From: Bacillus sp. es.036
Lineage (GTDB): Bacteria > Bacillota > Bacilli > Bacillales > Guptibacillaceae
NCBI RefSeq assembly: GCF_002563635.1
Contig: NZ_PDIZ01000001.1
Coordinates: 3,472,001 to 3,536,000, forward strand
Direction: 5' to 3'
Length of the DNA: 64,000 nucleotides
Part shown: positions 29,703 to 60,106 of the stretch, one piece after another
Layout of the letters: each line of letters begins with the position of its first letter
How positions within the stretch are numbered: position 1 is the first letter of the stretch
Program-made: the position numbers and the translations under genes
The notes under the pieces: model-generated
Told to the model about the DNA's origin: nothing
The model's input: only the letters and a program-made list of their open reading frames with translations
The model's database searches: none

Positions 29703-29815
29703 AACCGAAGGCTCTCATCTATCAGGTTTATCACCCGCTGGAGTTAGCACAGTATCCAATGGACCTGTTGCTGAGGTTTCAAAGGGCCAGTCCCTCCACC
29801 TCTCTGGATAAGAAA
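29703..29815 (-). promoter_or_regulatory. SAM-I (S-box) riboswitch controlling mmuP-mmuM
   Basis: Read on the minus strand it has CTTATCCAGAGAGGTGGAGG, then GACTGGCCC, GAAACCTCAGCAACAGG, the variable P3 arm, and TGATAGATGAGAG, which are the conserved blocks of the SAM-I aptamer. The terminator follows at 29662-29690. When SAM is abundant, transcription should stop before mmuP. Confidence 0.95.
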
Positions 29816-53309: not shown

Positions 53310-53488
53310 CTAAAAATCGATAAAAAAAGCGCTTTCTTTTTTGCGTATTTACTTCTACCTACTTGTAGTTTACTTGGATTTATCTCATTTATCAATATGA
53401 ATTTGAAAGTATTTTTTAGGTCGTAATGTTAGATGCTATTGACGAGCGCCCAAGACATGTATAAAATACGCTAATAATACGTACCAGG

Positions 53489-53557
53489 TTTCGTATAATT
53501 TTGGAGATATGGTCCAAAGGTTTCTACCAAACTACCGTAAATGGTTTGACTACGATG
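53489..53557 (+). promoter_or_regulatory. Purine riboswitch aptamer, guanine class
   Basis: P1 pairs TCGTA (53491-53495) with TACGA (53551-53555). P2 (TTGGA/TCCAA) carries loop GATATGG, P3 (CAAAC/GTTTG) carries loop TACCGTAAATG, and the junction has TATAAT and GTTTCTACC, all canonical. The base between P3 and P1 that pairs with the ligand is C (GACTACG), the guanine/hypoxanthine class, not U as in adenine aptamers. It precedes the adenine deaminase gene. Confidence 0.93.
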
Positions 53558-53584
53558 ACAATTCTGGCAATGTGAATCTGTCAT

Positions 53585-57746: not shown

Positions 57747-58232
57747 TTGTTTGAGGTAGGCGATAAGATTTTTTATCCCATGTACGGTGCAGGTATAGTC
57801 GAAGCAATCGAGGAAAAAGAAATACTGGGTGAAACTCAGATCTATTATATTCTTAATATGCCTTTTCGTGACATTCAGGTGATGATTCCAAAAGGAAAGA
57901 CGGAAAACCTGAAAATCCGTGAAGTGTCTGACGTCAGCACAATGGATCAAGTACTTACTTCTTTTAACGAAGAAGTTGACGTAGAAGAACCCAGTGCAAA
58001 TAGAAACCAGCGTTACAGGGATAATATGAACAAGCTTAAAACAGGAGACATCCACAATCATGTGGAAGTAATCCGTGAGCTCGTTGCCCTAAACAAGAAA
58101 CGACCACTCGGAACTGACGATAAAAAACTACTGGAAAACGCCCAGCAGTTTCTCATAAGCGAGATCGTTTTGACAAAAGATGTTGAGTTAGATCAAGCAA
58201 CTGTTATCTTAAAAGAAGCGATTAAACATTAA
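57747..58232 (+). CDS. CarD-family RNA polymerase-binding transcription factor
   Basis: A 161-residue regulator. FEVGDKIFYPMYGAGIVEAIEEKEILGE is the N-terminal Tudor-like RNA polymerase-interacting domain, with the C-terminal helical DNA-binding part (VIRELVALNKKRPLGTDDKKLLENAQQFL..EIVL). The start is TTG 57747 behind GGGGGT: the frame extends upstream but the family begins just before FEVGD. It stabilises open promoter complexes, notably of rRNA genes, in the CdnL/CarD model; the Bacillus YdeB homologue is the nearest. Two TATAAT sequences (57702-57707 and 57719-57724) lie upstream. Confidence 0.9.
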   Translation: MFEVGDKIFYPMYGAGIVEAIEEKEILGETQIYYILNMPFRDIQVMIPKGKTENLKIREVSDVSTMDQVLTSFNEEVDVEEPSANRNQRYRDNMNKLKTGDIHNHVEVIRELVALNKKRPLGTDDKKLLENAQQFLISEIVLTKDVELDQATVILKEAIKH

Positions 58233-58240
58233 TTTTAGCT

Positions 58241-58282
58241 ATACAAAAAGGGACAGCCTAATGAGGCTGTCCCTTTTTGTAT
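58241..58282 (+). terminator. Terminator of carD
   Basis: TACAAAAAGGGACAGCC / GGCTGTCCCTTTTTGTA, an extended perfect stem with loop TAATGA. Confidence 0.9.
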
Positions 58283-58296
58283 AGGTGAAGGCTTGA

Positions 58297-58556
58297 CACA
58301 TACGCTTTAGCTTGGGCTAGCTTCTGTGCCACAGACCCTCGGTCACTTCAGCCTTCAATCTGAACACAAAGAGCGTGTTCATTTTGAAGGCTTCCAGTGC
58401 CTGCCGGGTCTAAACGTGGCACATACGCTTTAGTTTGTGCTAGCTACAAAACCCCAGACCCTCGGCCACTTCACCTTTCAACCTGAACACAAAGGGCGTG
58501 TTCATTTTGAAAGGCTCCAGTGTCTGCCGGGTCTAAACGGGGTTTTTCCGCTTTAC
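58297..58556. repeat. Tandem pair of covarying 99-nt hairpin units, possible new element
   Basis: Two units with a 123-bp period lie in the convergent gap between carD and gntK. Each is a 24-nt linker (TACGCTTTAG then TTGxGCTAGCT) plus a 99-nt hairpin: unit 1 at 58325-58423, unit 2 at 58448-58546. Helices from outside in: 8 bp variable, AGACCC/GGGTCT with an AAAC bulge on the 3' side, CACT/AGTG, 8 bp variable, GAACAC/GTGTTC, seven-base loop AAAGRGC. Outer helix is TGTGCCAC/GTGGCACA in unit 1 and AAAACCCC/GGGGTTTT in unit 2; inner variable helix is GCCTTCAA/TTGAAGGC and CCTTTCAA/TTGAAAGG. All 32 pairs are kept in both. A partial third linker (58547-58556) supplies the gntK stop codon. No open frame. 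Confidence 0.85.
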
Positions 58557-60106
58557 TTATTCCCCAATGTTTTGTTTTGAAAATTGGCTATGGCGGTGTA
58601 TTCTTCGGTTAATTTTCTTGAGATTCTGATGTAGATTGGGAGTAGTTCTGAGTAGATTTGGACGTTTTCTTTTTTGGGTTCATGGCTAAATGTATCTCCT
58701 ACTAGGTCTGAGACGATGCTTAGTGAGTCGATTTCGCCGAGCGCTTTTTTACCGAGAACGATGGCACCAAGGCAGGAGCTTTCATAGCTTTCTGGAACGG
58801 TTACTTCTTGGTTAAAGATGTCGGCCATCATCTGTCTCCAAAGAGCTGATCGAGCAAATCCACCTGTTGCTTTAATTTGCTTCGGTTCACCAATTAGCTC
58901 TTCAAGTGCAAGCAGGACACTGTATAAGTTATAAATAACCCCTTCAAGTACTGCACGGATCATGTGCTCTTTTTTATGATGCATCGCAAGCCCAAAGAAA
59001 CTTCCGCGCGCATCAGAATTCCATAATGGAGCACGTTCGCCAGCAAGATAAGGATGGAAAAGAAGACCGTCAGATCCAGGATTCACCTGCTCGGCAATTC
59101 GAGTTAGAATTTCATACGTATCAATGCCAAGGCGTTTTGCTGTTTCTGTTTCAGATGCTGCAAACTGATCACGTACCCAGCGGAACGTGATGCCTCCGTT
59201 ATTTACAGGACCACCTACAACCCACTTATCTTCTGTAAGAGCGTAGCAGAAGATGCGTCCTTTTGGATCTGTGACGGGACGGTCGGTTACGGCTCTAATT
59301 GCTCCGCTTGTCCCAATTGTTACGGCTACAACCCCTGGCTCAATGGCATTAACACCAAGGTTTGATAAGACACCATCACTTGCCCCAATGATGAAGTTGG
59401 TTTCAGAAGTAAGCCCTGTCTCTTCAATATAAGGTGCTTTTAATCCAGACATCATCTGTGTTGTGGACACCGGTTTAGACAGTTTGTCAGCTGTAATACC
59501 AGCGATTTTTAGCGCTTCCTCATCCCAATTAAGTTGCTCTAGATTAAATAAGCCTGTTGCTGAGGCGATTGAATAGTCAATCACGTATTCATGGAAAAAG
59601 CGATAGAAAACGTATTCTTTAATTGAAATGAACTTTGCAACTGATTGAAATAATTCTTTTTCATCATTTTTAAGCCAAACGAGTTTCGAGAGCGGAGACA
59701 TTGGATGAATAGGTGTTCCTGTTCGGCGATAAATTTCGTGTCCATCCATATCATTTTTTATTTTCTCAGCCCACTGTGCACTTCGGTTGTCTGCCCATGT
59801 GATGCATTTTGTAAGCGGCTTTCCGTTTTCATCTACTCCAATTAAACTATGCATCGCTGAGCTAAATGAAACAAATTTCACTTGCTCCCCACGTAACTGA
59901 TTATCCTGAATTACCGTCCGAATCGACTCTACGACGGCTAGTAGAATTTGCTCTGGGTCCTGTTCTGCCGTCGCGGGTGTTGGTGTAAAGAGAGGGTATT
60001 CCACATTATGTTTTGAAACAGGCTGACCGTCATCATTAAATAGAACGGCTTTTGTACTCGTTGTCCCGATATCGACACCAATCATAAATTGCTCTTTCAT
60101 CGTCAT
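58553..60106 (-). CDS. gntK: Gluconokinase (FGGY family)
   Basis: A 517-residue cytoplasmic kinase making 6-phosphogluconate. MIGVDIGTTSTKAVLFNDDG is the ATP-phosphate motif; VSFSSAMHSLIGVDENGKPLTKCITWADNRS is typical of gluconokinases; TIGTSGAIRAV and ATGGFARSALWRQMMADI are the FGGY ATPase elements. GGAGGAATGGCTT precedes the ATG. It follows the 6-phosphogluconate dehydrogenase gene on the same strand; a cre-like site and a TATAAT lie between, so it may also have its own promoter. The last codons run into the tandem hairpin element. No gluconate permease is in the window. Confidence 0.93.
   Translation of the reverse strand: MTMKEQFMIGVDIGTTSTKAVLFNDDGQPVSKHNVEYPLFTPTPATAEQDPEQILLAVVESIRTVIQDNQLRGEQVKFVSFSSAMHSLIGVDENGKPLTKCITWADNRSAQWAEKIKNDMDGHEIYRRTGTPIHPMSPLSKLVWLKNDEKELFQSVAKFISIKEYVFYRFFHEYVIDYSIASATGLFNLEQLNWDEEALKIAGITADKLSKPVSTTQMMSGLKAPYIEETGLTSETNFIIGASDGVLSNLGVNAIEPGVVAVTIGTSGAIRAVTDRPVTDPKGRIFCYALTEDKWVVGGPVNNGGITFRWVRDQFAASETETAKRLGIDTYEILTRIAEQVNPGSDGLLFHPYLAGERAPLWNSDARGSFFGLAMHHKKEHMIRAVLEGVIYNLYSVLLALEELIGEPKQIKATGGFARSALWRQMMADIFNQEVTVPESYESSCLGAIVLGKKALGEIDSLSIVSDLVGDTFSHEPKKENVQIYSELLPIYIRISRKLTEEYTAIANFQNKTLGNK

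Follow-up and report, generated by a model that had tools for sequence, protein, structure and literature searches.

Covarying tandem hairpins beside a gntK-like gene of Bacillus sp. es.036 belong to a dispersed palindromic repeat

Several dispersed or insertion-prone elements have been described that resemble the element reported here. REP sequences are described as short imperfect palindromes with a GT(A/G)G head (PMC2817692). The bcr1 element of the Bacillus cereus group is presented as a small insertion repeat of MITE-like, non-coding, dispersed and mobile-looking character (PMC3733652). Bhal-1 of Bacillus halodurans is a stem-loop repeat of unnamed function, listed with 36 copies and a length of 74 bp (PMC2267715). 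Group IIC introns are reported to insert at terminators (PMC4424553).

The window is the whole stretch of DNA that was analysed, 64,000 nucleotides long. It contains an array of two tandem hairpin units, which lies between a CarD-like gene and a gntK-like gene. The features of this locus are as follows.

57747..58232, + strand: CarD-like gene on the left, reading towards the array (gene call; Pfam CarD_C, CarD_TRCF_RID)
58234..58289, + strand: long inverted repeat with a T-run, terminator-like, just left of the array (26-nt arms, 92% complementary)
58291..58317, + strand: short truncated unit (right-arm end only) and linker (weak local match from about unit position 97-100)
58318..58433, + strand: repeat unit 1 (model R1, 114.7 bits; genome C1:3530318-3530433)
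58434..58440, + strand: linker separating the units (gap between the two model matches)
58441..58556, + strand: repeat unit 2 (model R1, 113.5 bits; genome C1:3530441-3530556)
58553..60106, - strand: gntK-like carbohydrate kinase gene (reading frame; Pfam FGGY_N, FGGY_C)

An earlier sequence-only reading had described two 99-nt hairpins with a period of 123 bp, separated by 19 substitutions that include seven compensated swaps. This was borne out: 58325-58423 and 58448-58546 are 85% identical and differ at 19 of 99 positions, 14 of which make up seven double-sided pair changes; of these, five lie in the outer helix and two in the inner helix. When 19 changes were placed at random, seven or more double-hit pairs arose in 0 of 100,000 trials. 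The same reading had held that none of 32 pairs is broken and that the other five differences fall in loops, which needs correction, as unit 1 has 37 predicted pairs and one of these is lost in unit 2, where A-T becomes A-C; four differences are unpaired. The folding z-scores of the two units are -7.9 and -5.9 on the + strand and -8.3 and -5.4 on the - strand. In the family alignment the AGC at the start pairs with a GCT in the former linker, and the unit is therefore longer, spanning 58318-58433 and 58441-58556. The gntK stop codon (58553-58555) does lie within the element, as had been proposed, but in the end of unit 2 and not in a third, partial linker.

The inverted repeat at 58234..58289 is absent from the list of a simple terminator scan and was picked up by a purpose-made detector. 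Within the array the simple scan gives one weak + strand match (58538-58550), where 0.5 is expected by chance. Elsewhere in the window the Rfam scan identifies a SAM riboswitch (29712-29814, - strand) and a purine riboswitch (53471-53572, + strand). A short motif, ATTCCGCGA / TCGCGGAAT, occurs at window positions 2536 and 17132 and also near arrays elsewhere in the genome. It is mostly paired or tripled with a spacing of 20-80 nt, and is found just 5' of arrays L110, L112, L132 and L139 and beyond the 5S gene in L114 and L115.

The units of the window are members of a family that is dispersed through the genome. Model R1 has 87 matches here at E up to 0.01, grouped into 34 head-to-tail arrays; the search with a covariance model had been proposed as a check for many genomic copies, and these were found. 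Searched at the DNA level with E up to 10, the genome yielded 58 rows, and 44 of these reached 2.3e-5 or better. Units within one array lie on the same strand; the few rows on the opposite strand reflect weaker antisense matching of that palindrome. About 114 nt long, the unit forms an imperfect palindrome, TGTC|YAGCT ... CGCTTTTC, and its ends are shared across the order, with TGTC preceding YAGCT and CGCTTTTC closing the unit. TTA follows the unit directly at 43 of 100 array ends.

Covariation extends from the two window units across the family. Thirty loci were fetched and yielded 63 nhmmer hits as the starting set for an alignment. Five partial or antisense hits, ten chimeric or damaged ones, five missed by the trimming rule and four identical copies were removed to leave 39, and the two window units, which were among the five missed by trimming, were added back by hand to give 41. 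In these selected units the 37 pairs are formed in 94.2% of 1,514 cells, and 26 of the 37 show changes on both sides; the omission of chimeras biases the pairing figures upwards. Double-changed cells number 270, compared with 82.4 in shuffles and 18-51 with slid partners, and further pair types are not above shuffles (49 against 51.1) in the 41 units. A broken helix is present in 14 of 84 units of the fuller set. Helix types are reshuffled between units: the 41 units contain 27 four-helix combinations, and the outer helix type GTGGG occurs with six inner helices.

The family shares features with REP and BIME elements, which are likewise palindromes dispersed between genes, clustered and present in many copies per genome. 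A REP/BIME-like placement had been suggested for the window array, and the arrays of this genome do lie between called genes. The repeat differs from REP as described in having a unit of about 114 nt with TGTC before YAGCT, in place of a short palindrome with a GT(A/G)G head, and from BIMEs, which alternate in inverted orientation, in having arrays of one orientation. The genome has six Y1_Tnp matches, and the best repeat-model match within 1.5 kb of them scores 17 bits; the link to a nearby TnpA-REP gene that had been suggested for checking was not borne out. Among relatives with a Y1_Tnp match 71 of 87 carry the repeat. It is also carried by nine of the 14 relatives in which no Y1_Tnp match was found, four of these nine having 29-37 matches, and a RAYT is therefore unlikely as a present requirement. 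Membership of the REP/RAYT system was rejected, the extragenic position and high copy number being as in REP and the palindrome type, orientation and RAYT linkage being otherwise.

Like bcr1 as described, the repeat is non-coding, dispersed and mobile-looking; it differs from this MITE-like element, on the published description, in showing no terminal inverted repeat beyond the whole palindrome and no target duplication visible at its blurred borders. Bhal-1 is also a stem-loop repeat of a Bacillus relative; it is set apart by its listed length of 74 bp, again by description, and may be related. Bacillaceae-1 RNA (RF01690) is likewise a small hairpin element of Bacillaceae, but matches another stretch and not the repeat units; in one place (L087:1434-1499) it fills the gap between two of them. 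Group IIC introns are comparable in target choice only, as far as they are described, since the arrays often follow terminators; the repeat unit is far smaller, and the Rfam scan of the window gave no group II intron match. In Rfam 15 neither the window units nor units of 18 other loci have a match at or above the gathering score. The literature searched, which excluded most subscription papers, holds no name for the family. The element had been put forward as a candidate undescribed structure, which these searches support as far as they reach: it is a dispersed palindromic repeat that lacks an Rfam entry or a name in the papers searched, Bhal-1 and bcr1 having been compared by description only.

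Model R1 has matches in every one of the 14 genomes of the genus, in 80 of 101 relatives and in 48 of 65 genera, with at most 37 candidates scored per genome; the sister genomes G007 and G009 have 68 and 100 matches. In a class sample with 15 candidates scored, 28 of 250 genomes match at E up to 1e-6, 15 belonging to the same order, 12 to one other family (f49) and one to another (f56). Two of 199 genomes match in a phylum sample with 18 candidates scored, both from the same order. An order-wide pattern scan of named genomes returned at least 120 stretches, and of 80 names among the matches listed 78 are what we take to be Bacillales. The remaining two (L292, L296) are labelled Chryseobacterium sp. 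ISL-80, perhaps a misnamed record. A search of unit 1 against plasmids and phages gave no match. A viral contig of 222,888 bases has an exact match to the order-wide pattern at L344:2666-2699. As far as these sequence samples reach, the family is restricted to one lineage.

Occupancy of individual sites varies within the genus. At the gntK site, judged by eye in 14 genomes, 11 have full units, one has a half unit (L105) and two (G003, G010) have none. At a second site, also inspected by eye in the 14 genomes, six have none and five a full unit; G005 and G009 retain a right-arm remnant and G006 a rearranged unit. In the empty state, again by eye, the end of a terminator lies close to the opposing stop codon, and arrays occupy the space between these two. 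Nine arrays of this genome have no counterpart among the arrays fetched from G007. Five of the nine were placed in G007, where three sites hold right-arm remnants (L117, L134, L140) and two hold rearranged pieces (L120, L123); at a sixth, L128, a unit is present in G007. No fresh single-unit insertion with clean ends was seen at the sites compared across the genus, and no target-site duplication was seen by eye at the empty sites, where the borders are blurred.

Some units lie in rRNA operons, where the unit begins 4 nt after the end of the 23S gene (L114, L115, L082, L085); L084 is similar, with only 10 nt of flank visible. By eye, 25 rRNA operons of three genomes divide into nine with one unit type, three with another, nine with a short different hairpin and four with nothing, and no clean empty site was found among them. 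The short hairpin in these 23S-5S spacers is about 35 nt long. In the spacers of G000, G007 and G009 (L345-L369) the contents after the 23S gene vary among operons of one genome.

That some species of the genus have sites with no unit speaks for a repeat that spreads. Against this, the places of the five own arrays sought in G007 hold a remnant or rearranged piece, which points to loss, and the presence of units at the gntK site in 11 of the 14 genomes means that sites are old. These observations bear on a reading in which transposition plays no part: sites would be old, gene conversion and array recombination would spread sequence among them, and hairpin-templated repair would re-match the arms. 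We consider this unlikely. Old and shared sites, remnants instead of empty sites in G007, chimeric units, the scarcity of G.T and A.C, and the occurrence within one genome of two unlike units at equivalent rRNA positions are all in keeping with it, but one-sided changes persist unrepaired at a neutral pace, and both the unit-free sites of some species and the many unrelated sites in many genera need some arrival.

The fate of copies in place was followed by comparing terminal units with those at orthologous sites in G007 and G009. The 44 comparisons, in which some sites count twice, gave the same unit (at least 85% identical) in 17, another unit in 23 (three of them at 82-84%) and four not placeable, so arrays turn over between close species, with units gained, lost and exchanged. 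In the 17 orthologous units 67 of 1,220 paired sites differ (5.5%), as do 32 of 686 unpaired sites (4.7%) and 78 of 1,700 sites in the flank, taken as the next 100 nt (4.6%). Changes at pairs include 26 from Watson-Crick to mismatch, 12 the reverse, six to G.U and seven to another Watson-Crick pair. Stems thus drift about as fast as loops and flanks, and landed copies are not visibly kept for their fold; selection on folded structure at each site, which had been offered to explain the covariation, is not supported.

Units are also exchanged between sites. In this genome 44 of 68 units are nearer to a unit at another site than to the orthologous G007 array, 37 of them by more than 3 points, and 34 of 87 are at least 95% identical to a unit at another site. 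The two units of the window are exceptions and are nearer to their orthologues. This exchange may be gene conversion instead of transposition. The family is well paired despite the drift of single copies, so copies must be renewed.

Wobble pairs provide a further test of whether RNA or DNA pairs. In four overlapping sets, counted in helices with at least 75% Watson-Crick pairs, G.T occupies 5 of 900, 13 of 1893, 2 of 1067 and 17 of 2507 cells at covarying pairs (0.2-0.7%). A.C occupies 4, 24, 20 and 21 cells in these sets and other mismatches 52, 115, 55 and 153; one repeat alignment has 22 G.T cells at pairs classed as non-covarying. Thirty SAM riboswitches, drawn from 13 genomes that comprise the present one, eight of its genus and four of its order, have G.T in 19 of 268 cells (7.1%) and A.C in none. 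The contrast is about tenfold and approximate, the helix filter having been applied to the repeat only and three of the four repeat alignments being model-fitted. The near absence of G.T means that DNA must pair, or that both strands count, or that repair re-matches the arms. Cruciform-templated repair, the other explanation first given for the covariation, is one form of such DNA-level pairing and fits the counts, which stop short of proving it.

In whole minimum-energy folds G-U makes up 7.0% of pairs on the - strand, 2.4% on the + strand and 5.0% in the SAM set, and two of the four repeat alignments have more A.C than G.T (24 against 13, 20 against 2). These could hint at a functional - strand RNA, and little weight is placed on them, since the counts are low and the folds are governed largely by constant positions. 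It seems to us very improbable that the element is a structured small RNA or a riboswitch-like RNA with a role in trans or in cis. The deep covariation in a long rod would suit such an RNA, as would the copies in 23S-5S spacers, which are presumably transcribed, but arrays that bring the copies of a genome into the tens, gene neighbourhoods of several kinds, intolerance of wobble pairs and drift in place do not sit well with it. An RNA structured on one strand was likewise judged unlikely from the scarce wobble pairs and the drift at orthologous sites. Taken together, the scarcity of G.T, the drift of stems and the similarity between sites point to a DNA repeat that spreads rather than to an RNA under selection in place.

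Arrays take up a preferred position relative to genes. Among 100 named sites 16 lack a gene on one side; the other 84 are codirectional in sense (37) or antisense (25), convergent (15) or divergent (7). A gene reads into the array from the left at 25 of 32 arrays here and 52 of the 84 named sites. The 3' end of the array and an opposing stop codon are separated by -1 to 6 nt at 22 of the 40 named sites with such a neighbour, the stop being TAA in 17; in this genome the array ends within 4 nt of such a stop in 12 of 17. The purpose-made detector finds a terminator within 90 nt upstream of 17 of the 34 arrays (0.3 in shuffles) and downstream of four. Genes end in terminators, and the upstream terminators may therefore reflect no more than the placement of arrays behind genes. 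Of the 34 arrays, 27 are preceded by a partial unit, which starts at position 50 or beyond, in the loop or right arm, in 26 of the 27, several of these matches being short and weak.

Such positions would be expected of a 3'-end structure useful to the host, in which the hairpins would be retained because they terminate or insulate transcription between adjacent genes, or shield mRNA ends, in both directions. The array ends at opposing stops argue for it, as does the direction of the left-hand gene here, though less so at the named sites, and function on both strands would also forbid G.T and A.C. We regard it as unlikely: stems drift like flanks at orthologous sites, a terminator is usually already present upstream by the purpose-made detector, and the simple terminator scan finds no more than chance in the window array.

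The position behind terminators also brings to mind a bacterial SINE-like retroelement, whose folded unit RNA would be reverse transcribed in place behind terminators, the reverse transcriptase being borrowed, perhaps from an element of group IIC type. We hold this to be improbable. If it were true, a fixed 3' end would follow, as would 5' truncation at or beyond the loop, which is the point at which an enzyme working from the 3' end would be unwinding the rod; such truncation is seen in 26 of the 27 arrays that have a partial unit. The hairpin with TTTTC would make each copy a new landing site, leading to one-way arrays of unlike units.

We think it probable that the hairpins are copies of a dispersed non-coding DNA repeat that spreads between sites with no gene of its own, as a non-autonomous selfish repeat. 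A single-stranded stage, folded as a hairpin, would let copies of this repeat spread or convert one another. Only foldable copies would go on spreading, which would preserve pairing in the family even as individual landed copies decay. Arrays would grow, shrink and become mixed through recombination between units. Counting against this reading are pair types no more numerous than in shuffles, the broken helix of 14 of 84 units and the closeness of the two window units to their orthologues. A mobilising enzyme would be expected, and a present-day Y1 (RAYT) transposase seems not to be required; the searches found no mobile enzyme for the repeat.

The genus thus carries a repeat with tens to about a hundred copies per genome, present in many genera of the order, that has neither an Rfam entry nor a name in the papers searched. 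It raises the tractable question of what spreads the palindrome in relatives that show no Y1_Tnp gene. It also offers a caution for RNA discovery, since strong covariation can stem from the propagation of a repeat whose individual copies drift. Two simple tests, one for absent wobble pairs and one for drift between orthologous sites, can separate such repeats from functional RNAs.
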